Assembly (NCBI RefSeq): GCF_002886185.1
Contig: NZ_KZ614146.1
Coordinates: forward strand, 3,465,495-3,529,494
Origin: Salipaludibacillus neizhouensis
GTDB taxonomy: Bacteria > Bacillota > Bacilli > Bacillales > Salisediminibacteriaceae
DNA length: 64,000 nucleotides
Direction: 5' to 3'
Translations under genes and position numbers: made by a program
Shown: piece by piece, positions 42,005-64,000 of the stretch
How the letters are laid out: each line of letters begins with the position of its first letter
Numbering within the stretch: the stretch's first letter is position 1
Notes under the pieces: model-generated
Told to the model about the DNA's origin: nothing
The model's database searches: none
What the model saw: only the letters and a program-made list of their open reading frames with translations

Positions 42005-42895
42005 TTAATCTTTCATTAAGCGGCAATCGATATAATTTCTTGCGATAAGTGCATACTCTAGCGGGTGAGCTTTTGCCGGGTCTTGTTCTGCTTCAATCAC
42101 AATCCACCCTTTATAATCTGAAGCAAGCAGTTCTTGATAGACTTGGACAAAGTCTAAGTCTCCATCTCCCGGTACAGTAAACATGCCGTGCAAAAATGAA
42201 TCTAAAAAGGATTTCCCTTCTTTTACACATTCCTTCATCTTATTCGTTCGAATATCCTTAAAATGAACATGTTTAATTCGATCCATATGTTTTTTTAATA
42301 GATCCATATAATTGTTATCAGATACGAAAATATGTCCCGTATCATATAACAAATGCACGTGCGCCGGATCGGTATTTTCCATGAGGCGATCGACTTCTTC
42401 TAATGTTTGCACCCCTGTACCCATATGATGGTGAAAAACGAGTAGTAATCCATAATCTTCAGCCATCTTTCCTAATGTATTTAAACCTTCACAAAGCTTT
42501 TGCCATTCTCCATCATTAAAATAAGGTTTTTCTTCAAAAACATTTTTACTTGTTCCTTGAATGCTGTATGACTGCTCTGAAACAACCACGGCACTTGCTT
42601 GGACGGCTTTCAGATAAGCACAAAGTTCATGAAATTCTTTGGATGCTTCTTCAATACCATCTCGAATAATATAACTACTAAACCATTTTGAGGCGACTTT
42701 TAAGTTACGCAGTGTTAATTCTTTGTTTAATATTTCGGGTTCCGGAAAGAAGCCACCTACTTCGGTGCCGTCAAAACCTGAAATATATACATCTCCTAGT
42801 AAGTGAGACAGGGTCGTTTCCTTACCGATCTCAGGGATATCGTCATTTCTCCAACCGATCGGCGCGATGCCCCATTGAATATGCTCTTGGCCCAT
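42005..42895 (-). CDS. iolE: Myo-inosose-2 dehydratase
   Basis: A 296-residue TIM-barrel enzyme of the sugar-phosphate isomerase-like class. IolE removes water from scyllo-inosose to give 3D-trihydroxycyclohexane-1,2-dione. Recognisable segments are [17 protein letters not shown] at the N-terminus, [20 protein letters not shown] near residue 155, [10 protein letters not shown] and VHFKDIR, which carry metal ligands. The length equals that of Bacillus IolE. It is the last gene of the iol run and starts 18 bases after iolD, with GGAGG in front. Confidence 0.95.
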
Positions 42896-42913
42896 ATATA
42901 TCCTCCATTCTTT

Positions 42914-44827
42914 TTAGTACTTCTTCGCTTTTTCAAGCATTTTTTCCTTGAATTTATATGCCTGCTGGATACTTTCTTTTTCAGAGACTTCTGCTACACC
43001 TAAATTCCACCAGCTGCCTTCATAACCGTCAGACATTGTTTTAGGTAAAACTTTCATTTCGATCAACGTGGATGTTTCCTGTTTTTTGGCATCTTCCAGA
43101 GCAGCTATTAACTCTTCTTCCGTATTTGCCCGATAGGTTTTCGCCCCGTATCCTTCCGCAACTTTGGCATAGTCTATGTTTAACACCTGGTCATCTGCCG
43201 TGCGAAATTCACAATTGTAGCTTCCCCCGCCATGAGCCATTTGAAGATTGTTAATACAACCATATCCAGAGTTATCAAACAGAAGGACGTTAATCTTCGT
43301 ATTATATTGAATGGCCGTAATTAATTCAGAATGAAGCATCAGGAAACTTCCATCTCCTACCATGGCATACACTTCTTTTAATGGTTCCGCTAATTTTGCA
43401 CCCAAGGTTCCAGAAATTTCATATCCCATGCAAGAGTACCCATATTCTAAATGATACGTGTTAGGAACTTCTGATTGCCACAAACGCTGTAAGTCACCTG
43501 GTAGAGATCCTGCTGCGCATACAACCACACTATCCTTATCTATCGTTTCATTAATAGTCAGAAGTGCTGTTGTCTGCGGAAAGTTCGTATTCAATGTATC
43601 TGCGTAGCGATTCAACTTTTCTTGCGAGAATTGCCCTTTTACTTCTGGATCAAAGTTGTCTCGATCATAGGTGATATGACGAAGACGGTTTCGCTCTCCC
43701 GCCCACTCTTCTTTTAATTCTGGGAGGGTTGAACCATGAGAACTCTTATAGCCTTCCAACATGGGTGTTAACTTTTCAAACGTTATTCTTGCATCTGCTA
43801 CTACTTGGAAAGCATCCAATTTCGAAGCTTGCATCCTGCTGACGTTAATATTTAAGAATTTCGTGTTTTCAAAATTGAAAACCGTTTTAGATGAGGTTGC
43901 AAAGTCCGTATATCTCGTTCCCACACCAATTACCAAATCTGCCTGACGAGCAGCTTTATTTGCCGCCAATGTTCCAGTGATTCCAAGGCCACCTAAATTT
44001 TTTTTAAACGTGTGCTCTATTGCTGATTTTCCTGCCTGCGTTTCTGTAAGTGGGATATCATAGGCTTCGGAAAACGCCATAATTGCTTCACGGGCCTCGG
44101 AATATTTCACTCCCCCACCTACTACAATCAGTGGCTTTTTGCTTTGTTTGATTAGTTCGGTAGCTCCTTTTAGTTCTCTTTCTACCGGTTGCTTCCGATC
44201 GATATAATGTACACGCTTCCGGAAAAACTCTTTGTCGTAGTCGAAGGCTTCCCCTTCTACATCTTGAGAAATACAAATCGTTGCTGGACCTGATCTCGCT
44301 GGATCCGTCATCACTTCAAATGCTCGGATAAGACTAGACATTAACTGCTCCGGCCGTGTAACGCGATCCCAATAACGAGATACTGGCTGCAGTGCATCAT
44401 TGGTTGTAATAGCTGTACTGTGCTCTTGTTCAAATTGTTGGAGTACCGGATCCGGCTGACGTGAGGCAAATGTATCCGCTGGTATGAGTAAAACTGGGAT
44501 ATTGTTAGCAAGCGCTGTTGCAGCTGCTGTCACTAAGTTTGCGGAACCAGGTCCACTTGATGTCGTTAAAGCATATATCTTTTTGCGAAGTTTTTGTTTA
44601 CTGTAAGCAATCGCAGCATGTGCCATTCCTTGTTCGTTTTTCCCTTGAATCACTTTTAAGTGTCCAGCATCCTGTTCTAATGCTTGCCCAATTCCTAAAA
44701 CGTTACCATGACCAAAGATGTTGAAAACACCTTCTACAAACGGGAATTCTTCACCATCTATATGCACATATTGTTGATTTAAAAATTTAATGAGTGCTTG
44801 CGCTGTTGTCAAACGGATCTTTTCCAT
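42914..44827 (-). CDS. iolD: 3D-(3,5/4)-trihydroxycyclohexane-1,2-dione hydrolase
   Basis: A 637-residue ThDP enzyme that opens the ring of the dione made by IolE to give 5-deoxy-glucuronate. The N-terminal domain holds GNVLGIGQALEQ and KNEQGMAHAAIAYSKQ with the cofactor-activating glutamate. The C-terminal ThDP motif is GDGSFLMLHSE to LLFDNSGYGCIN. Length and motifs are specific for IolD rather than acetolactate synthase. It is preceded by AAAGGGGTG and follows iolC by 13 bases. Confidence 0.95.
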   Translation of the reverse strand: MEKIRLTTAQALIKFLNQQYVHIDGEEFPFVEGVFNIFGHGNVLGIGQALEQDAGHLKVIQGKNEQGMAHAAIAYSKQKLRKKIYALTTSSGPGSANLVTAAATALANNIPVLLIPADTFASRQPDPVLQQFEQEHSTAITTNDALQPVSRYWDRVTRPEQLMSSLIRAFEVMTDPARSGPATICISQDVEGEAFDYDKEFFRKRVHYIDRKQPVERELKGATELIKQSKKPLIVVGGGVKYSEAREAIMAFSEAYDIPLTETQAGKSAIEHTFKKNLGGLGITGTLAANKAARQADLVIGVGTRYTDFATSSKTVFNFENTKFLNINVSRMQASKLDAFQVVADARITFEKLTPMLEGYKSSHGSTLPELKEEWAGERNRLRHITYDRDNFDPEVKGQFSQEKLNRYADTLNTNFPQTTALLTINETIDKDSVVVCAAGSLPGDLQRLWQSEVPNTYHLEYGYSCMGYEISGTLGAKLAEPLKEVYAMVGDGSFLMLHSELITAIQYNTKINVLLFDNSGYGCINNLQMAHGGGSYNCEFRTADDQVLNIDYAKVAEGYGAKTYRANTEEELIAALEDAKKQETSTLIEMKVLPKTMSDGYEGSWWNLGVAEVSEKESIQQAYKFKEKMLEKAKKY

Positions 44828-44840
44828 CGTTTACACCCCT

Positions 44841-45827
44841 TTATATTGTATTATTTCCCTTAATTAATTTCTCTATCTCTTCTACTGTTGGCATCGCATC
44901 TGAAGAACTGTGTTTACTTACGACAATCGATGCTGATGCACTGCCATACTTCAATGCTGTTTCAATATCTTTTCCTGATACAAGGGCATAAAGGAAGGCT
45001 GATGCATAGGAGTCACCTGCACCAAATGTTTTTAACACTTTTGTTTTATATGCTTTACCACGGTACGTTTCGCCTGATCTTGTATAGGCAAAAGAACCTT
45101 CGACCCCATGCTTGATGACAACCAGCTCCGGAGAGTGCTCAAATAAGTCCTTGATTGTTTTTTCATTTACTCCTTCATGGTCAAGGTTTTCCATCATGTC
45201 AAACTCTTCGCGTGTACCGATCACAACATCTGATTGTTCAGCAACCTGTGTATAATAGACGGCTGTTTCTTCTTTGGATTTCCACGTGTATGGACGATAG
45301 TCCAATTCGAAAATAACCTTTACATGATTTTTCTTCGCCAGTTTCACTGCTTTAAGCAATGCTTCTCGAGATGGGCTTTGTGCCAATGCCGTTCCTGAAA
45401 CAAGTAATATTTTTGTCCGTTTAATATATTCTTCATCTACTTCTGCCGGCTCTAAATAAAGATCCGCTACTTGTTCTCGATACATAAGGATGCTGCACTC
45501 CTCAGGACTCTTTATTTCCGTGAAAGCCAGACCTACTTTGTGCCCGTCATTGTCGATGACCATGTTTGATGTATCAATGCCAACGTTACTCATATATTGC
45601 TCTATGAATCTACCATGCTGATCATTCGGTATCTTACCGATAAAACCAGCCTTTAATCCTAATTTTGAACTTCCGATTGCAACGTTAGCAGGGGAACCAC
45701 CAACATATTTTTGAAACGTGATGGTTTCTTCCATCGGTCTGTTGAATTCCACTGCATTTAGATCAATGCATGCTCGCCCAACTGCGATCAAATCAAACTC
45801 TTTATCTTTATTAAATAAAATAGTCAT
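44841..45827 (-). CDS. iolC: 5-dehydro-2-deoxygluconokinase
   Basis: A 328-residue PfkB-family kinase. I use the ATG at 45827; the ATG at 45839 overlaps the GGGGG ribosome site. It phosphorylates 5-dehydro-2-deoxygluconate. Family motifs are GRACIDLNAVEFNRPME near residue 18, GGSPANVAIGSSKLGL, and the catalytic TFGAGDSYASAFLYAL with its aspartate near residue 275. It lies between iolB and iolD. The matching aldolase gene iolJ is not in the window. Confidence 0.95.
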   Translation of the reverse strand: MTILFNKDKEFDLIAVGRACIDLNAVEFNRPMEETITFQKYVGGSPANVAIGSSKLGLKAGFIGKIPNDQHGRFIEQYMSNVGIDTSNMVIDNDGHKVGLAFTEIKSPEECSILMYREQVADLYLEPAEVDEEYIKRTKILLVSGTALAQSPSREALLKAVKLAKKNHVKVIFELDYRPYTWKSKEETAVYYTQVAEQSDVVIGTREEFDMMENLDHEGVNEKTIKDLFEHSPELVVIKHGVEGSFAYTRSGETYRGKAYKTKVLKTFGAGDSYASAFLYALVSGKDIETALKYGSASASIVVSKHSSSDAMPTVEEIEKLIKGNNTI

Positions 45828-45908
45828 AAAAATAGTCATCCCCCTTTTTGTTAGATTCTGTTAAATAAGTTGTTTTGTCTTTTTATTCTTTCAGCACTCA
45901 ATAAAAAT

Positions 45909-46724
45909 TTATGAGTTGATTATCCACTCGTGATCGGGATCATTATTGAACTTCCATACCCGCTTAGGACCTGCCATCACATTAAGATAGTAAGAAGTGT
46001 ATCCCGCTGGAACACCAACTGGATGATAGCCTTTAGGTACAATAACCATATCTCCGTTTTCGACTGTCATCGTTTCATCTAATGATCGATCATCTGTATA
46101 CACCCGTTGGAAAACAAACCCTTGTTTTGGGTCTTGTTCATGATAATAAGTTTCCTCCAACATTGATTCCTCTGGAAGATTATCCTTGTCATGTTTATGT
46201 GGCGGATAGCTAGACCAGTTACCACCTTCCGTAAATACTTCTACTACTAATAAGCTATTTGCAGAAGGATTATCATCTGGCAAGATGTTATGAACTAACC
46301 GTTGATTATTCCCTTTTCCACGGTGCTCAGGTTTAATATCAGCACCTTTTATAAGTTTTGTAGGCAATTGTTTACTAGATGGAGAATAACAAAGCGCTAT
46401 GCGAGCATTAGTCTCCGCTTTCACCTTAAAAATACGATTGTTTGATACATATACGCTGTCAGTTGGCTTCTTTTCAAAAACTGCATTACGAGTACCAATA
46501 CTTTCATGTGTTACTTCCCCGTCTGTAAAAGTAATTTTACCTGTCATTACAACAATACAACACTCCTGCCAATTTAACTCCTCTCTATAAGTGATACCGA
46601 TTTGAAGATCTATCAGTTTGAAACTAACGTACTTTAAATCAGAATTTTCTGAATTGATTTCGTGCAACAAAATTGCTCCATCGATGTTATTACGATTCAA
46701 CTTCTTCCGGAGTAAACTATCCAT
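45909..46724 (-). CDS. iolB: 5-deoxy-glucuronate isomerase
   Basis: A 271-residue bicupin protein, the same length as B. subtilis IolB. The ATG at 46724 has TTGGAGG nine bases upstream; the frame to 46781 has no site. The metal-binding cupin stretch is WSSYPPHKHDKDNLPEE near residue 175, followed by EETYYHE and the second half GYHPVGVPAGY. It turns 5-deoxy-glucuronate into 5-dehydro-2-deoxygluconate. Confidence 0.95.
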   Translation of the reverse strand: MDSLLRKKLNRNNIDGAILLHEINSENSDLKYVSFKLIDLQIGITYREELNWQECCIVVMTGKITFTDGEVTHESIGTRNAVFEKKPTDSVYVSNNRIFKVKAETNARIALCYSPSSKQLPTKLIKGADIKPEHRGKGNNQRLVHNILPDDNPSANSLLVVEVFTEGGNWSSYPPHKHDKDNLPEESMLEETYYHEQDPKQGFVFQRVYTDDRSLDETMTVENGDMVIVPKGYHPVGVPAGYTSYYLNVMAGPKRVWKFNNDPDHEWIINS

Positions 46725-46806
46725 TTTAATAAACCTCCAAGTATAAATTATTATTAAACCTTCTGCTAAACTAATTAGCATTTTAATCGACAGGTTTTAT
46801 TTTAGA

Positions 46807-48261
46807 TCACCAGCGAGCTGTGACCATTTTTTTGCGAGTGTAAAATTCAACCCCGTCTGTTCCGTTAGCGTGAAGGTCACCGTAAAACGAGTTTTTCCAG
46901 CCGGAGAATGGGAAGAATGCCATTGGAGCTGGCACTCCTAAATTAACACCTAACATGCCTGCATCAATTTCTTGACGGAACTTTCTTACGCTGCTTCCGC
47001 TGTCAGTATAGATGCATGCTCCGTTTGCAAACTCAGATTTGTTCGTTAGTTGAATAGCTTCATCCAATGTTTCTACACGAACGACGGACAAAACAGGAGC
47101 AAAGATTTCTTCTTTCCAAATAGTCATCTCGGTTGTTACGTGATCAAAAATAACTGGACCAATGAAATAACCTTCTTTTAATCCGAGAGTTTTATCGCGT
47201 CCATCATAAGCTAGTTCTGCGCCTTCTTTCTGACCAATTTCAATATAATCTTCTGTTTTCTTCTTATGAGACTCTCGAATGACAGGACCAAGGAATACAC
47301 CTTCATCAAGACCATTACCGATCGTAATGTCATCGACTGCAGACTTTAGTTTCTCCATCAATTTGTCTGCCACGTCACCAACAGCTACTGTAACGGCTGC
47401 GGACATGCAACGTTCTCCTGCAGATCCGTATGCAGCACTTACAATTTGTTGCACCGTAGAGTCAAGATCAGCATCCGGCAGTACGATCGAATGATTTTTT
47501 GCTCCAGCGAGCGCTTGTACTCGTTTTCCATAGTTGGCTCCTGTTTTATAAACATATTCCGCGACAGGTTGAGAACCAACGAAGGAAATCCCTTTAACTT
47601 CAGGGTTTTCGAGGAGACCATTCACCACATCGTGTGCTCCGTGAACGAGATTTAATACACCATTAGGTAAACCTGCTTCTGTAAATAATTCAACGAGTCG
47701 ACCGGCAAGTATCGGCGTCCGTTCCGAAGGCTTTAATACGAATGTATTACCGCATGCAATAGCTAGCGGGAACATCCAGCAAGGAACCATCATTGGGAAG
47801 TTGAAAGGAGTAATTCCGCCAACAACACCAATCGGGTAACGATACATACCAGATTCAATGCCAGTTGCAATGTCAGGTAACTGTTTTCCCATCATAAGCG
47901 TCGGAGCACCGGCAGCAAATTCAACACATTCTATTCCTCTTTGAACTTCTCCATAAGCTTCACTGTAACTCTTTCCATTCTCTTCAGTGACGAGTCTAGC
48001 TAATTCCTCCCAGTGTTCTACTAAGAGTTGTTGATATTTAAATAGAATACGAGCTCGTTTAGGAACTGCAGTATTACTCCAAGATTTAAAGGCACCATTG
48101 GCTACTTGAACGGCGCTATCTAAATCCTCACGGCTCGAGATTGGTACGTGAGCGATTGTTTGACCAGTTGCAGGATTAGGTACCTCTTCTGTTTTTCCGG
48201 AAGTTGATTCGATCCATTGACCTCCAACATAATTTTTGAGATAAGGTGTTTTTTCAGTCAT
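46807..48261 (-). CDS. iolA: Methylmalonate-semialdehyde dehydrogenase (acylating)
   Basis: A 484-residue CoA-acylating aldehyde dehydrogenase. The start at 48261 follows AGAGGAG by eight bases; the longer frame to 48324 is unlikely. The catalytic cysteine is in [11 protein letters not shown] near residue 283, and [11 protein letters not shown] and [12 protein letters not shown] are typical of the MmsA/IolA group. It converts malonate semialdehyde to acetyl-CoA and carbon dioxide at the end of inositol breakdown, and can also serve valine breakdown. The position between iolG and iolB supports IolA. Confidence 0.93.
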
Positions 48262-48324
48262 TTTCATTTCTCCTCTCAGTAAATTTTTTAGTAGGATCTG
48301 CCTGGAACCAGGAAATACTATCAA

Positions 48325-49344
48325 TTACTTTGAATGACTTTCATATAAATCCAAATGAACCGGATGACCTTTATCTAGAGATTCTTTTGCTGCTTTCGCA
48401 ATAAGTTCTGCCTGAAGCCCATCGTTTCCATCGCATATATTCTTCTTACCCATAACACAAAGATTCACAAATTCTTTCACTTCTTCTATATAGGCATCTT
48501 TATATCTTTCAATAAAGAAATAAAGAGGGTTATCTTTTACTACTCTATCTTTTGTTGAAATTTCTATTGTAGACGGTCTATTATTTTCAACATGAGCCAT
48601 TCCTTCACTTCCTAGTACTTCGACTCTTTGATCATAACCATAAATGGCTTGCCTACTGTTATCTATGACCCCAATAGCTCCATTGGCAAATGTCAAAGTA
48701 ACGATAGCAGTATCAATATCTCCTACCTCCCCAATTTTTGGATCAATTAATACAGCACCAACCGCAGAGACTGTCTTAACTTCGCTACCAATCATAAAAC
48801 GCGCCATATCAAAATCATGAATCATCATATCCATAAATAATCCACCCGAGTTGATTATATAGTCAATGCTTGGTGGTGCTGGATCTCTAGATGTTATTTT
48901 AAGAAGATGAGGAATTCCTATTCCTCCATCTTCAACTACTTGACGAAGCTTGATAAAGTCAGGATCAAATCGGCGATTGAATCCTACCTGTAATTTCACT
49001 CCTGTCTTAGACACTACTTCGAGAGCCTCTTTTGTTTCTTTAACTGAAAAGCTAACTGGTTTTTCACAAAAAATATCTTTTTTAGAAAGAGCAACTTCTT
49101 TTATGATACCTGCATGAGTAGAGGTCGGTGTACATATAAAAATTGCTTGTATTTCTGGATCTTGAAGTAAAAGATGATAATCTGTAGTCAACTCTTCTAC
49201 TTGATATCTTGCTGCCCAATCTTGAAGGTGATCTACTTTTATATCTGATACACTTTTTACCCTTACAAAAGGAAGTGCACTAAGATTCTCAACATGTAGT
49301 TGGCCAATACGACCAGCACCTATAATACCAATTGTAAATGTCAT
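48325..49344 (-). CDS. iolG: Inositol 2-dehydrogenase (Gfo/Idh/MocA family)
   Basis: A 339-residue NAD-dependent dehydrogenase. The nucleotide site is IGIIGAGRIGQLHVENL. Lysine of the conserved EKPVS motif is near residue 95, and the catalytic Asp/His pair is in FMDMMIHDFDMARF near residue 170. It probably oxidises myo-inositol to scyllo-inosose, the first step of the pathway encoded downstream. Scyllo-inositol or another inositol derivative is also possible, since this family is broad. It follows the LacI regulator by 83 bases containing a perfect operator palindrome, so it begins the regulated unit. Confidence 0.88.
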   Translation of the reverse strand: MTFTIGIIGAGRIGQLHVENLSALPFVRVKSVSDIKVDHLQDWAARYQVEELTTDYHLLLQDPEIQAIFICTPTSTHAGIIKEVALSKKDIFCEKPVSFSVKETKEALEVVSKTGVKLQVGFNRRFDPDFIKLRQVVEDGGIGIPHLLKITSRDPAPPSIDYIINSGGLFMDMMIHDFDMARFMIGSEVKTVSAVGAVLIDPKIGEVGDIDTAIVTLTFANGAIGVIDNSRQAIYGYDQRVEVLGSEGMAHVENNRPSTIEISTKDRVVKDNPLYFFIERYKDAYIEEVKEFVNLCVMGKKNICDGNDGLQAELIAKAAKESLDKGHPVHLDLYESHSK

Positions 49345-49360
49345 ATATAATTCCCCTTTG

Positions 49361-49378
49361 TGATTAAGCGCTTAATCA
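49361..49378. promoter_or_regulatory. LacI-family operator palindrome upstream of iolG
   Basis: TGATTAAGCGCTTAATCA is a perfect 18-base palindrome with the central CG typical of LacI-family operators. A TATAAA -10-like box at 49385-49380 (minus strand) lies just before it, so a bound repressor would sit at the transcription start of iolG. The gene for a LacI protein ends 50 bases upstream. Confidence 0.8.
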
Positions 49379-49427
49379 TTTTATATAGATTTAAATGAAG
49401 TAAAGAAAATTGAACGTACTGCTTATT

Positions 49428-50444
49428 TCAATCTATTTTCACTTCTTTTATAATTTTAACTGACTTACCTTCCTTAAGTTCAGGCATAAGAACTATCCGT
49501 TTCCATTCCCCTTCTGGATATGATATTGAGTGAACAATTTGGTCAATTGTATGTTTCGCCAATTCTTTTATTGGCTGAGCAACTGTTGTTAACTCTGGAT
49601 CACACAATTCTGCTAATAAAGTATTATCGTAACCAACAACAGAAAGTTCCTCTGGGACTGATATTCCTAGAATCCTTGCCTCTTTAATTAGCACCATTGC
49701 AATTAGATCAGTAAAGCAAAAAACAGCTGTTGGTATTTCTTCTGAAGCTAATAAGGATCTTGCAATTTCTCTGGCTTCTAATATGCTAGATTTTGATGTA
49801 TATAACTGGTTTTCTGATAATGTAACGTTCTGCTCGCCGATTGCTTCTTTAAAACCTTTTAAACGAGTAATACTGTTTTTCCTTCCTTCTTCTAGAATTA
49901 CAGTTATTTTTCTATGTCCATTTTCCATCAAGTAACGCCCTGCAAGATAGCCTCCTCTAAAATCATCTGTTGTTACAACATGAGTTGAAAATGACATCTC
50001 ATCAATAGTAAAGAGAACAACCGGGATTTGTCTTACTTTCACCTTATTGAATGCTTCTATATTAAGAGGATCTGTGGCAATAATAATTCCATCCACTTCT
50101 TTTTTTATTAATAAATCTAAATACATTTGTTCTCTATCTATCTGATAATAGGTACTACAAATAATAAGAGCATAACCCGCTTCTCTTGCATTATTTTCTA
50201 GTAATTTAGCCATTTCAGAGAAGAATGAATTGGATATATCTGGTACCAAAACACCAATTGTAAAAGTCTTTTTCCCCGCTAAAGCCGCAGCAACTCCACT
50301 CGGCTGATAATCCAAAGAATCCATTACTGCAAGAACTCTTTTAATTGTACTTTCACCTATTCTACCGTTATTATTAATTACTTTAGATACTGTGGCAATT
50401 GAAACTCCTGCCTCCTTAGCAACATCGTAAATCGTAGGTTTCAT
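49428..50444 (-). CDS. LacI-family transcriptional regulator
   Basis: A 338-residue repressor. The N-terminal helix-turn-helix and hinge read TIYDVAKEAGVSIATVSKVI and continue to residue 60. The effector domain (61-330) is of the periplasmic-binding type, with VLVPDISNSFFSEMAKLLE and TAVFCFTDLIAMVLI. It probably binds the palindrome at 49361 and controls the iol genes, taking the place of the DeoR-type IolR used by B. subtilis. The effector may be an inositol intermediate or a glycan product. AAAGGAG precedes the ATG. Confidence 0.93.
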   Translation of the reverse strand: MKPTIYDVAKEAGVSIATVSKVINNNGRIGESTIKRVLAVMDSLDYQPSGVAAALAGKKTFTIGVLVPDISNSFFSEMAKLLENNAREAGYALIICSTYYQIDREQMYLDLLIKKEVDGIIIATDPLNIEAFNKVKVRQIPVVLFTIDEMSFSTHVVTTDDFRGGYLAGRYLMENGHRKITVILEEGRKNSITRLKGFKEAIGEQNVTLSENQLYTSKSSILEAREIARSLLASEEIPTAVFCFTDLIAMVLIKEARILGISVPEELSVVGYDNTLLAELCDPELTTVAQPIKELAKHTIDQIVHSISYPEGEWKRIVLMPELKEGKSVKIIKEVKID

Positions 50445-52436: not shown

Positions 52437-52469
52437 TAAAATTCACCACTTTCACCAGATATTTATACT

Positions 52470-53591: not shown

Positions 53592-53593
53592 AT

Positions 53594-54334: not shown

Positions 54335-54399
54335 CCATAGACATAATTCTAAATTTAATATCTTTTTAGATCGTTCTTGATAGCAATTTGATAACGCTT

Positions 54400-55670: not shown

Positions 55671-55680
55671 ACATATCCTC

Positions 55681-56544
55681 TTATCCCTTATCACCAGAGG
55701 ATATATTTATACCTGTAATATACTTTTGTAATATAAGAAATAGGATAGTAATAGGAATGATAGATATAACTGATCCAGCTAGAATAGAATTCCAGTCAAC
55801 TCCGTTTGCGCCAATGAAATTTTTAATTGCAATTTGAATGGTATAGTTTTTCTGATCTGATAAAACTAATAGAGGCAAAATATAATCATTCCATCTCCAC
55901 ATAAAACTAAATAAACATAATGTGATGGTTACTGATTTGGATAGTGGCAACATAATTTTGGAAAAAATGTAAAATTCACCAGCTCCATCAATCCTTGCGG
56001 CTTCAACGAAGGAAGTGGGTACTGTCAAATAAAATTGCCGATACAAAAAAATACCTGTTGTTGTGGTTACGACTGGAAAGATTACCCCCCAAATATTATT
56101 ATACAATCCTAGTTCACTAATTACAGTAAATTGTGATATTGTTAATGTTTCTCCTGGTATTAAAGTCCCAAGCAAAAACACTCCAAAAATTATATTTGTA
56201 TATTTTACATTATGCCTGTAAATTGCTAGAGCGTAACCGCACATTGAGCTAATTGCAACTGTAATTAATGTTCCTACAACTGCTAAGAAAAAGCTATTAT
56301 AGATATACCTGAAAAATCCATTTTCAATAACTTTTATATAGTGATCAATAGTGAATTCCTCTGGAAATAAACTTAATGGGTATGCAAATAGCTCACTAGA
56401 TGGTTTAAAGGAACTAGATAATAACCATATAATTGGAAATACAATTAGAAAAGCACATGTCAAATTAATGGATGTTAAGACGATGTTAGTGTCTTTCTTC
56501 TGTTTTCTTCTATTATGGTTACTAAATCTATTTTTGTTTCCCAT
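55681..56544 (-). CDS. Sugar ABC transporter permease (MalG/UgpE type)
   Basis: A 287-residue inner-membrane protein with six helices. The basic N-terminus is followed by LTSINLTCAFLIVFPIIWLL, and the ATPase contact loop is EAARIDGAGEFYIFSKIMLP near residue 195. It pairs with the MalF-type permease whose stop overlaps its ATG in a TAATG junction. Together with the binding protein at 57478-58776 it imports an oligosaccharide, probably one made by the local glycan enzymes. No ATPase gene is present; Gram-positive bacteria often share one MsmX-like ATPase among such importers. Confidence 0.92.
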   Translation of the reverse strand: MGNKNRFSNHNRRKQKKDTNIVLTSINLTCAFLIVFPIIWLLSSSFKPSSELFAYPLSLFPEEFTIDHYIKVIENGFFRYIYNSFFLAVVGTLITVAISSMCGYALAIYRHNVKYTNIIFGVFLLGTLIPGETLTISQFTVISELGLYNNIWGVIFPVVTTTTGIFLYRQFYLTVPTSFVEAARIDGAGEFYIFSKIMLPLSKSVTITLCLFSFMWRWNDYILPLLVLSDQKNYTIQIAIKNFIGANGVDWNSILAGSVISIIPITILFLILQKYITGINISSGDKG

Positions 56545-57419
56545 TAGTATTTCTCACCACCTTGATTTGTTTTAAATTGAACATATGCAATTATTGCAAA
56601 CACAATCATAACTATAGCAGAAATGGCTGTTGCATATCCATATTCCCCCTGATTAAAACCTTTGTCAAAAATGTACTGTATGGTATAGGTAGTCCCAGTC
56701 CCTGGTCCACCTTGGGTAACGCCTTGTACCAAAGCGTACTCTTTGAGGAGATCTATGGTACTTAATAACGTAACTAAAAATGTAGTTGGTGCTAATAAAG
56801 GGAAAGTAACGCTTATAAATTTTTGTACACTGTTAGCACCATCAATTTCAGCTGCCTCATATATATCGCTTGAAAGGTTATTAATCGAGCCAATATAAAT
56901 AATCATAAAAAAGCCTGTAGTCATTAGTGTGCTTGCCACACTAATGACTATCGTTGCTAGAACGACATTTGAGCCCCATTCCAAGGGACTACCACCTAAT
57001 TGCTGAATTATAAAATTTACTAAACCATACTCCTGGCTGAACATCCAATTAATTGTTATCCCCATCACTAAAGCAGATAGTAATACAGGAATGTAGATTA
57101 GAGTACGAGCTAGCGTTTTAAATCTAACCTTAGGGGAGGTTAGTAAAACTGCTAACAGCAAAGGTATTGCTACTTTAAAGGGTAAATTTACAATAGTATA
57201 GATAATGCTTCTAAAAAAAGCGCTATAGAATTCTTTATCTTGTAAGACTCTTACATAGTTTTCAATTCCAATAAAATCCATTTGCTTCCATCCATCATAA
57301 TTTGTGAAGGACAAGATCAAATTTAGAAATAAGGGAATTAAGAAAAATATTGTAAACAAAACTCCACTTGGTGCAATAAATAACCAAAAGACGCGATGGT
57401 TTCGTGAATTTTTCGACAA
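56544..57419 (-). CDS. Sugar ABC transporter permease (MalF/UgpA type)
   Basis: A 291-residue protein with six helices. It starts with TTG at 57419, ten bases after GGAGG. Typical segments are FWLFIAPSGVLFTIFFLIPL near the N-terminus, the loop YEAAEIDGANSVQKFISVTFP near residue 187, and VQGVTQGGPGTGTTYTIQY. It forms the channel with the downstream permease. Confidence 0.92.
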   Translation of the reverse strand: MSKNSRNHRVFWLFIAPSGVLFTIFFLIPLFLNLILSFTNYDGWKQMDFIGIENYVRVLQDKEFYSAFFRSIIYTIVNLPFKVAIPLLLAVLLTSPKVRFKTLARTLIYIPVLLSALVMGITINWMFSQEYGLVNFIIQQLGGSPLEWGSNVVLATIVISVASTLMTTGFFMIIYIGSINNLSSDIYEAAEIDGANSVQKFISVTFPLLAPTTFLVTLLSTIDLLKEYALVQGVTQGGPGTGTTYTIQYIFDKGFNQGEYGYATAISAIVMIVFAIIAYVQFKTNQGGEKY

Positions 57420-57477
57420 ATCAAATCATCCTCCACTTCAAAAGAGCATATAGTAAAATATGCTCTCTATAAATCTC

Positions 57478-58776
57478 TTAATTTGCAATTTCCCAATCTG
57501 ATTTTTCACTAAGATCATTTGCAAATACATCAAGTGCTTCTTTTGCAGTCAATTCTCCACTAACAGCACGTTTGATAACGTCTCTGTATTCACTATCTAA
57601 ATAATTTCTCCATGCAGACTTTTCATCAACTAAAAACCTGTCAGTAACGTTTTTCATTTCAGCTTGTAAGATTTCGTAATCAGCTATTACTTTCTCATCC
57701 TCGGGTTCGTAAGTTACCCCATTAATGAATGAAATTCCCTTATCCTGTGCTAAAAATTCAACGTAATTATCTTCTTTATAGAACCATTCTAAAAATTCTT
57801 TTGCCAACTCTGGGTTTTCAGCACTTGATGGTATCCCCAAACCACCTCCACCTGCAATAGCAGATTGTTGTAATGAACCAATCGGTGAAGGCATTACACC
57901 CCAGTCAAAGGCAGTAATTTCTTCATACATAGGACTATACTCCCATGAACCTGATAAATAAATTCCTACATCACCGTTTTTAAAGTAATCTGCTGGATTA
58001 TCTGTTGATCCACCTGTCCAAATAACTTTAGGCATTAAATCAGTTTCATTCCATTCTACAAAGTTTTCAAGGGTTTGAACATTTTCCTCACTATTTATTG
58101 AAACCACAAAACTATCTTCTGTTTCCTGGGTGATAGATCCTCCATTACTGTACATTAGGTTATCGTATCTTCCTCTGGAGAAATCAACGGCTAATCCGTA
58201 ATTAACGTCTCCTGAATCTTTGAGTTTTTGTGCGTTACTTATTAATTCATCCATTGTCCATGGATCATCAATTGTTGGTACTTCAATACCTACCTCTTCA
58301 AATGCATCTGCATTATAAAAGTAAGATGTAATTGTATATTGGTTTGGGAGTGCAAGATTTGAATCACTATCATAATCCTGCCCAATTATTTCTAGAGCTG
58401 CCTGATCAAAAATACCTATATCTACTACATCTGTTAAATCTAAAAATTCCTCTGGATAAAGTCTGGTTAATCTGGTAGTTGAAACTAAATCAGGAACATC
58501 ATCATTTTTTAACATTAACGGAAATTTTGTAATTTGATCATCGTAAGGTATCACAATGGTATCCACTTTATTCCCAGTTTCTTCAGCCCATTTTTTGAAA
58601 GAATTATTTAAAGCATCTTCACTAGAAGGCTCTTCTGACAAGAGAATTTTCAAAATACCCCCATCAGCCTCTTCTGAGTTATTGGCTCCATTTGTTTCGA
58701 CTGATGTCTCTGAACTACATGCAGTTATAAATGATAAAAACAATACGCTACATAAAGTCAATAGAAATCCCCTCAA
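57478..58776 (-). CDS. Sugar ABC transporter solute-binding lipoprotein (family 1)
   Basis: A 432-residue extracellular binding protein. The ATG at 58785 touches its AGGAG site, so the TTG at 58776, nine bases away, is the better start; it gives a clean signal peptide ending in FITAC (Cys20). The mature part has DLVSTTRLTRLYPEEFLDL near residue 85, DVGIYLSGSWEYSPM and the family-typical IPSSAENPELAKEFLEWFY. It should bind an oligosaccharide. The genes for both permeases follow directly. Confidence 0.9.
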   Translation of the reverse strand: MRGFLLTLCSVLFLSFITACSSETSVETNGANNSEEADGGILKILLSEEPSSEDALNNSFKKWAEETGNKVDTIVIPYDDQITKFPLMLKNDDVPDLVSTTRLTRLYPEEFLDLTDVVDIGIFDQAALEIIGQDYDSDSNLALPNQYTITSYFYNADAFEEVGIEVPTIDDPWTMDELISNAQKLKDSGDVNYGLAVDFSRGRYDNLMYSNGGSITQETEDSFVVSINSEENVQTLENFVEWNETDLMPKVIWTGGSTDNPADYFKNGDVGIYLSGSWEYSPMYEEITAFDWGVMPSPIGSLQQSAIAGGGGLGIPSSAENPELAKEFLEWFYKEDNYVEFLAQDKGISFINGVTYEPEDEKVIADYEILQAEMKNVTDRFLVDEKSAWRNYLDSEYRDVIKRAVSGELTAKEALDVFANDLSEKSDWEIAN

Positions 58777-58888
58777 ATTAATCATCTCCTAAAAATAGTT
58801 TGTTTGGTTTAAAAATAATGATATCTCATCCCTTTAATGCATCTAACATAAATGTAATACTTTTTTAATGAATTGTAAGATATATTTC

Positions 58889-61378
58889 TTAGGTTATCAC
58901 CCCCTTCATTAAAGTGGGGTTGAGAATATAATTCCCATCATAGGTAATTGCTTGATCATTAATATATAAACATTCTTTAAAGTAATTTACACTTCCAAAT
59001 TGATAATCATTGAGTGAAATACATTGATGTGAATCTGTAAGATTTACGTTTTTTATTAATGATTGGAATCTTTCAAATGATCCTACTTCATGAGAAGACG
59101 AGCATTTTAATAAAACTTGATGTTCTAAACCATTGGAACGAACCTCCCGAAACGATATAGCGCTTTCATTAGTAATCTCATAACCGTTAGAAAAGTAAGC
59201 GGCAAGATAACTATCATCTTTTTTAATGAATATCCACTTTCCTACTTTTATAACATTATCTAGTTCCCAGTATGGTAAGTACATATGAATAAATGGGATG
59301 GAATCTTTCTTTAATTTATAATGCAACAAAGCTAGATTTTGATATTGCTTTATTAAAGGAATATCACCATTCCCAGCCCAGAAACTTGGACGGTTTTCGC
59401 CGCTATATTCTATCTCTCCTGGGTGGTTAATCCATAGTAATGTACATTCACTCCCAAGTGATATATTGAGAACATGTTGTTGATGCCCTTTCTTATTTGC
59501 TTTAAAGTCTATTAAACTTGCTAACGAATATGCTTTGCATTTGAAAATATAAGTATAAGCTTGGTTCTTGCCTTGTTTGTATTCTGCTTTTAAAGCATTT
59601 CCTTCATTTAATTCCATATAAGGTATTAACTTATCAGGAGGGCTATAGTCTGAAATGGCAAATAACGTGGATGGTCGTAAAGCATTATTAAAATAACCAT
59701 TTCTCCAAGCAATGCTCAAAATATTCGAAATTTCACCTAGTGGCATTGCCTTTAAATTATGTTCATATGATCTGCCATATGTGGAAGATAGAGTGCCTCC
59801 ATGATAATTAATTGCGATAATTTTAAATGTATAGTCAAGCGCTCGCTTAGCTAGGTCTTTAATTTCCTGATCAGGTGCTGCAAGATATAGTCCAAAGAAA
59901 CCAATTAAATCAATAGGTAAGTATGTTGTAGAATTCCATTCAGTAAATCCATAATTGTAAAAGTTATCAAACCAATCAACTAATCTTGACTTCGCAATGT
60001 GATATTGTTCCGAACCACTTCTTTTACTTACTGTAAATACTTCTTCTGGGAAAAGATAACCTGCATAGTATTGAGAAATATGAAATAATAAGGCATGATT
60101 TTCACTGAAATACCACATAACATCATTACCAGGCTCATCGATCCAGTACCTGAAATTAATTGCCAACTCTTTTACTTTTTCCTGCATCTCTTTTGGAAAC
60201 TTCCATTTCTCTTTTGCATAAACTGAAAGCATGGGGACTAACACAAAATCTGCACAATCTCCCTTTGTTTCTATTAACTTAAATGCAGAATTGAAATTAG
60301 TGATAAAATCTTTATCAGGATTTCCTAAGTGAATATTTGCTAATAAAACATTAATATCTTCTAAAGGTAAACTAGCAAAGTAGAATAGAGCATTTGACTT
60401 TCTTTTTTCAAGAGAATCCTCATTCATATAAGCCTTAAACTTCTCTTGGTTGTATAACGTGAATTTAATTCTCCTAGTGAGATACTCCCCATTTGATAGG
60501 GGATATCCTATTTGACAAGTTGTAATACCTGCCGTCTTTAGTTTATCCACGGTACCTATAGAAATCTTACTATTTTCATTTCTTATATCTATGTGAAAGT
60601 CATCATACTTAAAATCCGTAATATTTCCGTCGTGCATATCATCTTCTACATACTTTTCTGGATTCAGGCGAACCTTAAGTGACTTATCAATCTTATTTTC
60701 TATATCAGGAGTAACTAATTTTATTTCTCCCTTACGATATATATCTTGGTCGAAATACAGTTTGTAAAGAAACGTTTCAGCGACTGAGAATTCATCTAGG
60801 GGAATTGGTATTGGTATAAAGCCTTTAATTGAGTCTTTAGATAAGTTTAGCAATTCAAAATAGTAATTAACATCCCGCTCTGCTAAATCATCAAAATATA
60901 CCAAAATTTCATTTTTTCCTCTTTCGAAGGAGAGTTGGATAATTTTTTCAGTCCCATGGTTTCGAGTAAACGGCTCGAATACTTCTTGTAAATTGCCATT
61001 GACCCATATGCGAGTTCCTCCGCAAGTTTTTAATCTAAAAGGCATATTAACCTTTTTATTGGATAATATATAAGTTTTAACATAACACTCTAGTCTATGA
61101 GGGACTGAAATAAAAGAAGAAAAGTCAACCCTCGTATTTTCGAAGGGGATATAAACTTTGTTTATTCCATTATTAATATAGGGAATTGCTTCATTAAATC
61201 GATTTTTTAAGAACTTTTTACGAACAGGATAGTCTACCTGATAGTAACCCTCCGTATTGCTAACTGAAGTATTCATCGTTTCCTTTTCTGTTGAAATAGA
61301 GGTTAATCGAATATCCGAATGTAAAAAACGGTTAAGTGAACCATTGGATAACACTTTATAAAATAATTTGTGGTCCAT
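58889..61378 (-). CDS. Unrecognised 829-residue glycan-active protein with sugar-binding and toroid-like parts
   Basis: I cannot name the family. The N-terminal third (to about 310) looks beta-rich and holds LKTCGGTRIWVNGNLQEVFE near residue 117, like the beta-sandwich lectin domain of many glycosidases. The middle (about 330-600) is helical: GDCADFVLVPMLSVYAKEKW, WYFSENHALLFHISQYYAG and TEWNSTTYLPIDLIGFFGLY look like active-site strands of an alpha/alpha toroid. GGTLSSTYGRSYEHNLKAM follows, and the last 200 residues appear beta-rich again. No signal peptide is visible. A lyase or hydrolase acting on an oligosaccharide in the cytoplasm fits the position between the GH38 and ABC importer genes. 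AAAGGAG precedes the ATG. Confidence 0.6.
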   Translation of the reverse strand: MDHKLFYKVLSNGSLNRFLHSDIRLTSISTEKETMNTSVSNTEGYYQVDYPVRKKFLKNRFNEAIPYINNGINKVYIPFENTRVDFSSFISVPHRLECYVKTYILSNKKVNMPFRLKTCGGTRIWVNGNLQEVFEPFTRNHGTEKIIQLSFERGKNEILVYFDDLAERDVNYYFELLNLSKDSIKGFIPIPIPLDEFSVAETFLYKLYFDQDIYRKGEIKLVTPDIENKIDKSLKVRLNPEKYVEDDMHDGNITDFKYDDFHIDIRNENSKISIGTVDKLKTAGITTCQIGYPLSNGEYLTRRIKFTLYNQEKFKAYMNEDSLEKRKSNALFYFASLPLEDINVLLANIHLGNPDKDFITNFNSAFKLIETKGDCADFVLVPMLSVYAKEKWKFPKEMQEKVKELAINFRYWIDEPGNDVMWYFSENHALLFHISQYYAGYLFPEEVFTVSKRSGSEQYHIAKSRLVDWFDNFYNYGFTEWNSTTYLPIDLIGFFGLYLAAPDQEIKDLAKRALDYTFKIIAINYHGGTLSSTYGRSYEHNLKAMPLGEISNILSIAWRNGYFNNALRPSTLFAISDYSPPDKLIPYMELNEGNALKAEYKQGKNQAYTYIFKCKAYSLASLIDFKANKKGHQQHVLNISLGSECTLLWINHPGEIEYSGENRPSFWAGNGDIPLIKQYQNLALLHYKLKKDSIPFIHMYLPYWELDNVIKVGKWIFIKKDDSYLAAYFSNGYEITNESAISFREVRSNGLEHQVLLKCSSSHEVGSFERFQSLIKNVNLTDSHQCISLNDYQFGSVNYFKECLYINDQAITYDGNYILNPTLMKGVIT

Positions 61379-61618
61379 TTTTTCATCTCCTTTCCTTTTA
61401 TTACGGTCAAGAAATATTATCTGAATAGGTTGTCACCACTTATTAAACGTTTATATAAATCCTGTTAAAGTTCACTTGAAAAAGTATACCTTGTTAAATA
61501 GATTAGTTAGAATTCAGCGATCCCACTATCTGCTGGTCATAATTTATAGGCTTGGACTCTTAACTTTGTAGATCTCTTATAAACTAATATCTTTATATAA
61601 CAGAAGAAGATTATATTG
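61379..61618. promoter_or_regulatory. Intergenic region with a possible LacI-type operator
   Basis: The 240 bases between the alpha-mannosidase and the 829-residue protein contain TAAACGTTTA (61444-61453), a ten-base palindrome with a central CG. It may be an operator in the leader of the downstream gene. No other structure is obvious. Confidence 0.3.
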
Positions 61619-64000
61619 CTAATACTTAATGAATATTGTTTTAATTTCATAGGGATTGAACGACAGAAAAGTTTTATCTCCGCTACTTAGGATCTGACTT
61701 ATTTTATTTTCAAGTAAATCACATTCCCACATCTCAGAAATAGACTTTGTGAATTCTATACTGCTTTTGGTTCTCATACCCCATGATTCATATAGCCGTA
61801 AAATTATCCCATCACCATCTTCTGCATACTTCAATGTCTCACAAATAACATTCTTTTTCTTAATTTGTAAAAATGAATAGCGGGCAGGTAACTTTCCTTT
61901 TTGTTTCTTAACTTCTGCTGTATAAACTGAATGATTTAAGTCATAGGCTTCCTCTACTACATTTCCATTACGGAAATCTCCTTCATGAGGATAGAGTGCG
62001 TATGTAAATGTATGAAGCCCTCTATCAGCTTTTGGGTTTGGATAAACGGCCGATTTAAGTAATGTTAATCTTAAAGATGCATTCAAAAAATCATGACCAT
62101 ATTTACCATTATTTAATAAAGCTATCCCATATCCAGGCTCAGATAAATCTACCCATTTATGTGCGCAAAGTTCAAATTTAGCCTGATCCCAACTAGTATT
62201 AGGATGTATCTGCCTTTCAACATTTCCAAATTGTATATCACAACTTGCTTTTGATGTATGAATGTCTACTGGAAATTCTACTTTCAATAAAAGATTTGTC
62301 TCATGCCAATCAACTGTCGTTTCAAAATCAATTCGTTTTGAATGCTGGTAAAATATTATTTTTTGTTTCATATAGGAGTTTAAAAAGGACTTTTTTAATT
62401 GAATAATAACTCTCAGAGGTGAACACTCCGTTATTTTAAATTCTTCACATGAATCTATATAGTATGCTTTATCCAAGTAACTTTTTTCGATATTCCATGC
62501 ATCATATTCCCATGGACGGTCTTCATAAAGAACAAAATGATTTCCTAATTCATTTTCACGTAATATCTCACGCTTTTCAGACTTATCAAACAAAGATAAA
62601 ATCTCACCCAGTTTGTTGAATTTCACATGATAAAATGGAGTATCTAATACTTTATTAATTCCGTCCCACAGGAAAGGATTTTCTTCGTTGTATGTTTTAT
62701 TGCTGAAAGAATAACAAATATAACCTTTCGTCGGAATTTCAGGTGCCAAAAATGTTAATATTTCATTTTCTTTAAAGCTTGGCAAAGCCTTACCTTCATA
62801 TGAAACCCCTAATATATCTTTTGAAACTGGAATCGTTATAACCCGAGGACGTCTCATTATTGTGTTTAATACAAGGACTCCTGATTTTTCTGCAGCCACT
62901 TCTGCAGATATAATTTCTAAAGCCTGTTGGATGAAAGCATGATTTGTAGTCAATATGTCCTTGTAATCCTTTTGAGAGTCTTCATATACTTCAGCAATAG
63001 CGGTACCTGGTAAAATATCATGAAACTGATTTAACATAGTCTTCTTCCAATTTCTTTCCATAAGTGAATATGGATACTCTTTTTGCAGATTATAAGTTTT
63101 TAAAAAGGAAGCCAAAAATTCTACATCTGAATTTGTGATTTCTGCTAATCGATTTGCTTTTTTGTTTTCAGCCATTGAAGTATAAGTTCCACGGTGATTT
63201 TCTAAATATAGTTCTCCATGCCATGTTGGAGGTTGTTTAGACTTGCTGAAATCTTTTGACAATGAATCAAAGAATTCCTTAGCGAAGGATTGTTGTGTTT
63301 TTGGAAAACCTTTAATTCCGTTTGAGAATCTTCTATTGGATTCTAGCATTTCATATGTAGGTCCTCCTCCTCCGTCTCCATAACCATAAAGTTGTAATAC
63401 ATGTCGTGATTCTTTTTTATTAAGATATTTTTCCCATGCTCCTTTTATCTGTGAAGCATTCAATAGGCCATTATATGTGGTATTTTTCATTTGAGTACGA
63501 TCATGCATAAAGTCAGTAGTTGTTAGCAAGTGGGTTAATATCTTTGAACCATCAATTCCTTCCCACAAAAAGGTGTCATCTGGCATTATGTTTGTATCGT
63601 TCCAAGCAATTTTACTTGTCATAAAATACTTTATTCCGCTTTTTTTCATAATTTGTGGTAAAGCTGCACTGTATCCAAACACATCGGGCAACCATAAGAT
63701 CTCATTCGATTTATTAAATTCCTTTTGGAAAAATGCTTTACCATATAGTATTTGACGAACTAGTGATTCACCACTTGGAACATTACAATCTGGTTCCACC
63801 CACATTGAACCTTCTGGTTCCCACCTACCTTGTCTCACCATTTCCTTAATCTTTTCAAAAAGAGAAGGGAAATCCTTTTTCACAAAATCATATAGTTGCG
63901 GTTGACTAGACATAAACTTGTATTCGGGATATTTATTCATCAAATATATGACTGTGGAAAAACTTCTAATAACTTTTTCTCGAGTTTGAGCTAGTGTCCA
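61619..64000 (-). CDS. GH38 alpha-mannosidase, partial (start outside window)
   Basis: The frame is open to the right edge and reads WTLAQTREKVIRSFSTVIYL into the region usually taken as start, so at least the zinc-binding N-terminus lies outside. About 793 residues are visible. GH38 hallmarks are RWEPEGSMWVEPDCNVPSGE, the nucleophile aspartate in ILWLPDVFGYSAALPQIMKK, and the metal-binding histidine in LNQFHDILPGTAIAEVYEDS. The remaining 450 residues form the beta-sandwich domains. GH38 enzymes remove alpha-linked mannose with retention. Lack of a transport gene in front cannot be judged. It heads the visible glycan block on this strand. Confidence 0.93.
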   Translation of the reverse strand, partial: WTLAQTREKVIRSFSTVIYLMNKYPEYKFMSSQPQLYDFVKKDFPSLFEKIKEMVRQGRWEPEGSMWVEPDCNVPSGESLVRQILYGKAFFQKEFNKSNEILWLPDVFGYSAALPQIMKKSGIKYFMTSKIAWNDTNIMPDDTFLWEGIDGSKILTHLLTTTDFMHDRTQMKNTTYNGLLNASQIKGAWEKYLNKKESRHVLQLYGYGDGGGGPTYEMLESNRRFSNGIKGFPKTQQSFAKEFFDSLSKDFSKSKQPPTWHGELYLENHRGTYTSMAENKKANRLAEITNSDVEFLASFLKTYNLQKEYPYSLMERNWKKTMLNQFHDILPGTAIAEVYEDSQKDYKDILTTNHAFIQQALEIISAEVAAEKSGVLVLNTIMRRPRVITIPVSKDILGVSYEGKALPSFKENEILTFLAPEIPTKGYICYSFSNKTYNEENPFLWDGINKVLDTPFYHVKFNKLGEILSLFDKSEKREILRENELGNHFVLYEDRPWEYDAWNIEKSYLDKAYYIDSCEEFKITECSPLRVIIQLKKSFLNSYMKQKIIFYQHSKRIDFETTVDWHETNLLLKVEFPVDIHTSKASCDIQFGNVERQIHPNTSWDQAKFELCAHKWVDLSEPGYGIALLNNGKYGHDFLNASLRLTLLKSAVYPNPKADRGLHTFTYALYPHEGDFRNGNVVEEAYDLNHSVYTAEVKKQKGKLPARYSFLQIKKKNVICETLKYAEDGDGIILRLYESWGMRTKSSIEFTKSISEMWECDLLENKISQILSSGDKTFLSFNPYEIKTIFIKY

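Follow-up and report, generated by a model that had tools for sequence, protein, structure and literature searches.

Gene organization of the island

The stretch of DNA analyzed here, referred to as the window, comprises 64,000 nt of the Salipaludibacillus neizhouensis genome (RefSeq assembly GCF_002886185.1, contig NZ_KZ614146.1, positions 3,465,495 to 3,529,494). It contains an island of genes on the minus strand, read from position 64000 down to 42005, in which a GH38 alpha-mannosidase is followed by an enzyme termed U829, the solute-binding protein (SBP) of an ATP-binding cassette (ABC) importer, two permeases, the remnant of an insertion sequence (IS), a truncated permease (permB2), a GH105 hydrolase, an enzyme termed U576, a LacI-family regulator and the inositol catabolism genes iolG-A-B-C-D-E. 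The same one-strand run of GH38, two unassigned enzymes, importer, GH105, LacI and iol genes had been read by a first-pass annotation of the sequence, and Pfam and NCBIfam searches confirm it in that order. The individual features are as follows.

61619..64000, minus strand: GH38 alpha-mannosidase, C-terminal 793 of 1043 amino acids (Pfam GH38 N, middle, C and C2)
58889..61378, minus strand: U829 (829 amino acids), putative uronate lyase (structure model and invariant residues)
57478..58785, minus strand: SBP, solute-binding lipoprotein of an ABC importer (Pfam SBP_bac_1; lipobox-like N-terminus by eye)
56544..57419, minus strand: ABC permease A, permA (Pfam BPD_transp_1)
55681..56544, minus strand: ABC permease B, permB (Pfam BPD_transp_1)
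54450..55660 (ends approximate), plus strand: degraded IS, a transposase remnant with frame breaks (open-frame pieces)
53594..54448, minus strand: permB2, 5ʹ-truncated permease, remnant of a second importer (alignment to permeases of relatives)
52470..53591, minus strand: GH105 (GH88/105), putative unsaturated uronyl hydrolase (Pfam PF07470)
50706..52436, minus strand: U576 (576 amino acids), second putative uronate lyase (fold and profile match)
49428..50444, minus strand: LacI-family regulator (Pfam LacI)
49360..49379, unstranded: 18-bp palindromic operator-like site TGATTAAGCGCTTAATCA, ahead of iolG (motif search)
48325..49344, minus strand: iolG, inositol 2-dehydrogenase (TIGR04380, 442.7 bits, cut-off 355)
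46807..48324, minus strand: iolA, methylmalonate-semialdehyde dehydrogenase (TIGR01722, 625 bits, cut-off 448.5)
45909..46781, minus strand: iolB (TIGR04378, 344 bits, cut-off 205)
44841..45839, minus strand: iolC (TIGR04382, 402 bits, cut-off 300)
42914..44827, minus strand: iolD (TIGR04377, 891 bits, cut-off 715)
42005..42895, minus strand: iolE (TIGR04379, 380 bits, cut-off 290)

The GH38 open reading frame extends beyond the window and encodes 1043 amino acids in full (L017:114-3245; loci used for comparison carry L numbers). All six Iol proteins (G, A, B, C, D and E) exceed their curated NCBIfam cut-offs. GH105, which scores 247 bits with PF07470 (cut-off 26.6) and has the PDB relatives 3pmm, 3qwt and 4xuv, is putatively an enzyme acting on unsaturated uronides. 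Scanning the window with Rfam and for tRNA genes gave no matches.

U829 and U576 resemble toroid lyases

Neither U829 nor U576 matches a Pfam or NCBIfam family at E 0.001. In PDB sequence searches with the two proteins, one gave no match and the other three (best E 0.47), and further sequence searches returned 3 and 12 matches, all at E 0.1 or worse; the description of U829 and U576 as unassigned is upheld. The model of U829 (pLDDT 90.8) consists of an N-terminal PA14/GH2-like jelly roll region, an alpha/alpha toroid and a C-terminal beta-sandwich, and its structure matches include lyases of the PL17, PL8, PL12 and PL15 types. The model thus has the combination of alpha/alpha toroid and antiparallel beta-sandwich that marks the heparinase II/III-like superfamily. 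Candidate catalytic residues N427, H428, Y486 and H635 are invariant in 42 sequences, and their Asn-His/Tyr/His order and spacing resemble, by motif comparison, those of some heparinase-type proteins of the order. A Pfam scan of the 42 members found PA14 in 13 and, among all matches, no heparinase or lyase family. Two other classes of structure match were set aside: those to GH2 beta-glucuronidases cover the N-terminal jelly roll only, and in another comparison the top matches, to epimerases and GH88 unsaturated glucuronyl hydrolases, align the toroid alone.

U576 is more poorly modeled (pLDDT of only 63), and its best Foldseek matches are GAGase II (8khv, E 7e-11) and PL33 (E 3e-9, TM 0.43). 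It was also compared with a heparinase II/III-type profile built from 15 of 20 heparinase-type proteins (500-760 amino acids), of which three scored under the Pfam cut-off. This comparison gave an hhalign probability of 94.8% and an E value of 5e-8 over 176 toroid columns, placing N154-H155 over the N-H pair and Y203 near the E-G-S-x-Y-Y region. Candidate catalytic residues N154, H155, Y203 and H352 are invariant in 12 sequences. By predicted fold and profile, U576 would likewise belong to the heparinase II/III-like superfamily. Profiles of U829 and U576 compared directly gave no significant match, although the heparinase profile comparison brought their candidate N-H and E-x5-Y positions into register.

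The toroid-like, lyase-like character suggested for both enzymes by the first-pass annotation is thus supported by models of toroid-lyase-like fold, with a modest match for U829 and a poor model for U576. Both models have the toroid plus beta-sandwich of heparinase II/III-type lyases, and their candidate Asn-His, Tyr and His positions are similar in order and spacing; the families to which they are likened are PL12, PL15, PL17, PL21, PL33, PL35 and PL8. Unlike these lyases, the window's enzymes have no Pfam match or convincing PDB sequence relative, and U829 has additional N-terminal jelly rolls. On the strength of these models, U829 is regarded as a putative uronate lyase of toroid-lyase-like fold, and U576 as a second, putative one with a heparinase-like toroid plus beta-sandwich.

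Recurrence of the linkage between uronide and inositol genes

The neighborhood of U829 was surveyed at 80 loci from named genomes, drawn from 494 related stretches in one genome collection; 59 of the 80 span at least 22 kb. An iol gene lies within 10 kb of U829 at 17 of the 80 loci (8 in Bacillaceae and 9 in Rhizobiaceae or unnamed Rhizobiales) and at 16 of the 59 longer ones. Two or more iol genes are present at 13 loci, and four rhizobial loci were counted on iolG alone, at 44-45% identity. Other neighbors across the 80 loci are ABC permeases (64), GH105 (52), kdu/kdg genes (12) and GH38 (6: 4 full-length genes and 2 locus-edge pieces of 78 and 146 amino acids).

Within the order, a whole-genome search found U829 in 14 of 397 genomes, in one as weak fragments only. 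IolD exceeds its cut-off in 74 of the 397, including 10 of the 14 with U829 and 64 of the 383 without it (Fisher p 1.6e-5, uncorrected for relatedness), and in 8 of the 10 genomes having both, U829 and iolD are at most 22 kb apart. Six genomes (L018-L023) carry, inside 19-20 kb, both iol genes and an SBP-U829-permA-permB2-like set. GH105, LacI and kdu/kdg genes are likewise found there in four of them, L019-L022, three of which belong to one genus. The order in Rossellomorea (L020) is kdgA-kdgK-kduI-x-kduD-x-SBP-U829-permA-permB-GH105-LacI-iolG-iolC-iolA, followed by iolD and iolE, and the four genes kduI, kduD, kdgK and kdgA are present in the same cluster in Pseudalkalibacillus (L019) by similarity. 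Four of the 80 surveyed loci are the same as L018, L019, L020 and L023 (L020 is L045, and L019 is L053).

On a tree of 81 U829 rows, presence of iol requires 7 changes against a mean of 16.5 when labels are shuffled, so the linkage is clustered by descent. Leaving out 20 iol-less loci of under 22 kb lowers the number to 5, and removing the window as well lowers it to 4; gains and losses are not told apart in these counts. The label stands on distant Bacillota and Rhizobiales branches. In this quick tree, where long branches were flagged, U829 of the window groups with Lactobacillales rows that lack iol and not with the Bacillaceae clade in which iol is linked, so its own linkage to iol looks separate.

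U576 has strong matches in 6 of the 397 genomes, its own included (a count that leaves out two weak fragments). IolD is present in 5 of these 6 and in 69 of the 391 others. At two loci (L118 and L120), U576 stands in the order U576-permB2-like-permA-SBP-LacI-iolE with further iol genes, and neither GH105 nor U829 lies in the 19.5 kb covered. In the genome of L120 (G126), U829 is found about 30 kb from U576, and U829, iolD and U576 fall within 34 kb on one contig. A third locus, L119, has the same importer beside one iolG-like gene. Distant relatives of U576 (25-32% identity) lie beside U829 and GH105 at 6 of the 80 loci, in Hungatella, Lachnospiraceae-type genomes and a spirochaete.

U829, GH105-type and iol genes thus occur together in other lineages, both in the order's genomes and among the 80 loci, in support of the first-pass interpretation; a complete separation of glycan block and iol genes in relatives, which would have spoken against it, was not encountered. 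The link between uronate and inositol is strongly supported. Conservation of the full trio of GH38, GH105 and iol holds in part: U829, GH105 and iol recur, but full-length GH38 shares a locus with iol elsewhere only at two near-identical Neobacillus-type loci (L042 and L043).

Composite origin of the island

The island is a composite of two blocks joined by a degraded insertion sequence, as is evident from the different nearest relatives of the blocks and from the IS scar between them. Block A (GH38, U829, SBP, permA and permB) is closest to a locus of Vagococcus allomyrinae (L038; U829 54%, SBP 61%, permA 69%, permB 74% and GH38 49% identity) and to one of Lapidilactobacillus bayanensis (L039; 49%, 60%, 68%, 77% and 44%, respectively); the U829-adjacent GH38 of L042 is 42% identical. 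Block B (permB2, GH105, U576, LacI and iol) has its nearest relatives in Bacillaceae. The transposase remnant, about 1.2 kb between the permeases, scores 20.5 bits with DDE_Tnp_1, under the cut-off of 23. Abutting it is permB2, which has lost its 5ʹ end and shares 75-84% identity with the permease found in Bacillaceae-type operons linked to iol. Most simply, a deletion associated with the IS would have taken away the SBP and permA of a second importer, bringing the two blocks side by side. Neither the IS remnant nor permB2 figured in the first-pass annotation.

A single inherited pathway of mannosidase and iol genes is therefore not supported, and mannose belongs plausibly to the same molecule as uronate and inositol. 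The segment is accessory, since U829 and IolD are both absent above cut-off from the 7 other genomes of the genus that were searched.

Probable regulation by LacI

The island's LacI is 43-57% identical to LacI proteins beside iol genes in relatives, and its recognition helix, SIATVSKV, is identical in all nine aligned proteins. The core of the palindrome ahead of iolG recurs as GTAAGCGCTTA twice upstream of GH38, beyond the window (L017:3276 and 3892). The 5.51-Mb genome has 8 copies of the core, TAAGCGCTTA (a reversed control pattern has 3), and 3 of the 8 lie inside the 24-kb island, ahead of iolG and GH38; under uniform placement this clustering has p 4e-6, for a region chosen after the fact. 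Among relatives, the Neobacillus-type and Rossellomorea loci have the core at the SBP-U829 operon as well as ahead of iolG: in L041-L045, of which L041-L043 are near copies, the SBP gene has sites ahead of it or at its start, and others lie in the interval from LacI to iolG. Two sites precede SBP in L053 and one is found in L040; L046 and L038 have none. U829, GH105-type and iol genes probably share a LacI operator, and the shared regulation looked for at the outset is, on these predicted sites, probable.

Proposed substrate and pathway

The reading favored here, to which a probability of about 0.5 is given, is that this composite, LacI-regulated island serves imported uronosyl-inositol oligosaccharides, the likeliest being of the Man-(1-4)-GlcA-(1-2)-myo-inositol type (Man, mannose; GlcA, glucuronic acid) from the head groups of plant glycosyl inositol phosphoryl ceramides (GIPCs). 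In its accessible text, PMC12201980 calls GIPCs the predominant glycosphingolipids of plant membranes and describes Man, glucose, glucosamine (GlcN) or N-acetylglucosamine carried on GlcA-inositol phosphoryl ceramide. The accessible part of PMC11496612 reports that inositol-phosphate glycans composed of hexose, uronic acid and inositol phosphate, as well as the unphosphorylated hexose-uronic acid-inositol, are released from plant GIPCs, and that the released glycans also bear pentoses and deoxyhexose; its reference list names an extracellular oligosaccharide from rose cell cultures, alpha-Man-(1-4)-alpha-GlcA-(1-2)-myo-inositol. The GH51, GH95, GH2 and GH38 genes found near U829 in relatives fit the pentose, deoxyhexose and hexose decorations of such glycans. 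Of the mannose-glucuronate-inositol substrate originally envisaged, the gene link for the uronate-inositol part recurs among genomes and the whole compound exists free in plant cell cultures (PMC11496612, accessible part); its mannose is plausible here.

In the proposed pathway, the SBP/permease importer would take up the oligosaccharide and GH38 would trim alpha-mannose where present. Beta-elimination requires a sugar on O4 of GlcA; U829, U576 or both would eliminate this sugar to leave an unsaturated uronyl-inositol, presumably inside the cell, as neither has an evident signal peptide. GH105 would then hydrolyze the unsaturated uronyl-inositol to 4-deoxy-5-ketouronate and inositol. Products of uronate lyases need KduI, KdgK and KdgA, and the genome encodes elsewhere a KduI (457 bits) with adjoining kdgA-like (37%) and kdgK-like (43%) genes, whose enzymes could use the uronate. 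Inositol as a product would explain the iol genes, with IolG-A-B-C-D-E burning it, and LacI, acting at the AAGCGCTT palindrome, would repress both iolG and the transcript that starts with GH38.

Oligouronate operons with GH88/105 and Kdu/Kdg enzymes are of a known kind. The island resembles them in its importer, lyase-like enzyme and GH105, and its relatives do so in kduI, kduD, kdgK and kdgA; it differs in that its second product appears to be inositol. With the Bacillus iol operon it has iolG, A, B, C, D and E in common, but glycan genes precede them and the regulator is of the LacI type, whereas IolR of B. subtilis is DeoR-type.

A narrower proposal, possible but rated at somewhat under even odds, is that Bacillaceae and plant-associated rhizobia have a dedicated pathway for Man/GlcN-GlcA-inositol head groups of GIPCs, with U829 and U576 as two undescribed polysaccharide-lyase families and 4-deoxy-ketouronate and free inositol as joint products. 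The searches made, over listings of an open-access library, showed no report of bacterial use of GIPC head-group glycans. If the proposal is true, it describes a bacterial route for feeding on the head groups of lipids abundant in plant membranes, and the gene set offers named enzymes for a named substrate. Assignment of U829 would also help annotate loci in rhizobia, spirochaetes, lactobacilli and gut Clostridia (494 related stretches in the one collection).

Evidence against and alternative explanations

A number of results weigh against the uronosyl-inositol reading. The fold match of U829 (Z 9.9) is modest by the structure-search tool's own note, and the comparison of the protein with the heparinase profile was not significant (hhalign probability 0.3%). 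The best NCBIfam model for GH105 is NF051900, 'beta-galactosidase BglB', at 354 bits, under the cut-off of 420; a search for where this label comes from gave nothing usable. None of the island genes is recognized as a phospholipase or phosphatase. No iol gene is found at 63 of the 80 U829 loci. L018 and L023 have iol beside U829 with no GH105 or LacI in the 19-20 kb stretch. In the 20 kb covered at five iolD loci, from four other genomes of the family, neither U829 nor GH105 is present. Half of 14 U829 genomes picked from the 80 have no IolD above cut-off anywhere, including both Lapidilactobacillus genomes, Lactobacillus helsingborgensis, Companilactobacillus, Hungatella and Halanaerobium; U829 is therefore not specific to inositol glycans. 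Its reading is accordingly that of a lyase family for 4-substituted uronides generally, whose iol-linked branches would use inositol-terminated ones. No operator core precedes U829, SBP or GH105 in the window. Against the catabolite-responsive element (cre) consensus, the sites agree at 10-13 of 14 positions, those of Neobacillus iolG being least similar (10 of 14); owing to this resemblance, CcpA may bind some of them.

The composite structure itself lends credit to the most serious alternative, which is nevertheless judged unlikely: that two pathways merely adjoin, block A together with GH105 serving an inositol-free Man-GlcA glycan, xanthan-like or other, and block B an inositol glycan, and that the IS joined them. 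The first-pass annotation had itself named a xanthan-like side chain as the more ordinary possibility. The relatives of block A lack nearby iol genes (L038 in full 10-kb flanks; L039 with one flank covering only 2.5 kb). Lapidilactobacillus, with the same GH38-U829-GH105 set, has no IolD above cut-off genome-wide, and the single IolD of Vagococcus is encoded elsewhere. A known xanthan cluster, that of Paenibacillus taichungensis, holds GH38, GH88 (the unsaturated uronyl hydrolase family), an ABC importer and an intracellular lyase according to the accessible part of PMC12827396. The island has iol genes and LacI in place of the PL8 and GH9 genes, neither of which was found among the proteins scanned; PL8 had no match in the whole genome, though no control genome matched either. 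Two further points tell against separate pathways: both GH38 and iolG are preceded by the operator core, and block B, having lost the SBP and permA of its own importer, would now depend on that of block A or another.

Less credible again is a system for pectin or arabinogalactan oligosaccharides, such as a rhamnose-glucuronate or rhamnogalacturonan exolyase system, of which iol would be a frequent, metabolically separate neighbor. GH28-like genes adjoin U829 at 34 of the 80 loci, and lactobacilli have PL4-like and GH51 genes nearby; the GH28-like and PL4-like neighbors suggest pectin-type substrates in other lineages and so also count against the uronosyl-inositol reading. A pectate lyase/esterase gene lies upstream of the island, the genome has 11 GH88/105 matches, and a rhamnose-glucuronate lyase family is known (PMC8377490 and PMC10951650, on family 42, in their accessible parts). 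This account leaves unexplained both the iol linkage in Bacillaceae and Rhizobiales and the shared operator core. Chance juxtaposition of a glycan operon with a horizontally acquired iol operon is disfavored as very improbable. The accessory nature of the segment would suit it, but 8 of 10 genomes of the order with U829 and IolD have the two genes within 22 kb, and the linkage appears on distant branches of the U829 tree.

Neighboring genes and related loci

Upstream of GH38, and not mentioned in the first-pass annotation, are genes for a GH3 enzyme, a regulator judged by eye to be of the AraC type, and a protein fusing pectate lyase with pectin esterase. The fusion (L017:7348-11073), just upstream of the island, has 1241 amino acids with CBM6/CBM35 matches and pectate lyase and pectinesterase domains. 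One of the GH88/105 matches of the genome has an internal stop; from their number, the organism looks like a pectin specialist. Between 27091 and 36832 the window encodes another ABC importer, with a double ATPase (28056-29561) and a permease (27091-28059); its neighbors are a periplasmic-binding-like protein, a dCache histidine kinase and a response regulator of the AraC type.

Several U829 loci carry genes of other kinds. Two unrelated lineages have PAP2 phosphatase genes close to U829, one at L075:6150-8183 and 11 other Agrobacterium/Rhizobium loci and the other at L050:18374-19318; the gene of L075 carries an autotransporter-type repeat. Where rhizobial loci have an oligopeptide-type ABC transporter, an HAD-like protein is encoded directly upstream of U829 (L108:8370-9752, L106:8937-9836 and relatives); the L106 protein in this position has no Pfam family match. 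These HAD and PAP2 genes, together with PHP-like genes of rhizobia and lactobacilli, might hint at phosphorylated glycans; they were given no weight, since the island has no recognized gene of these kinds and the PHP match is below cut-off. Finally, a second U829 clade (L028:7832-8581, L029:11332-12090 and L086) is accompanied by ROK and NagB-like genes, the NagB scores being under curated cut-offs, which suggests an amino-sugar uronide as its substrate.

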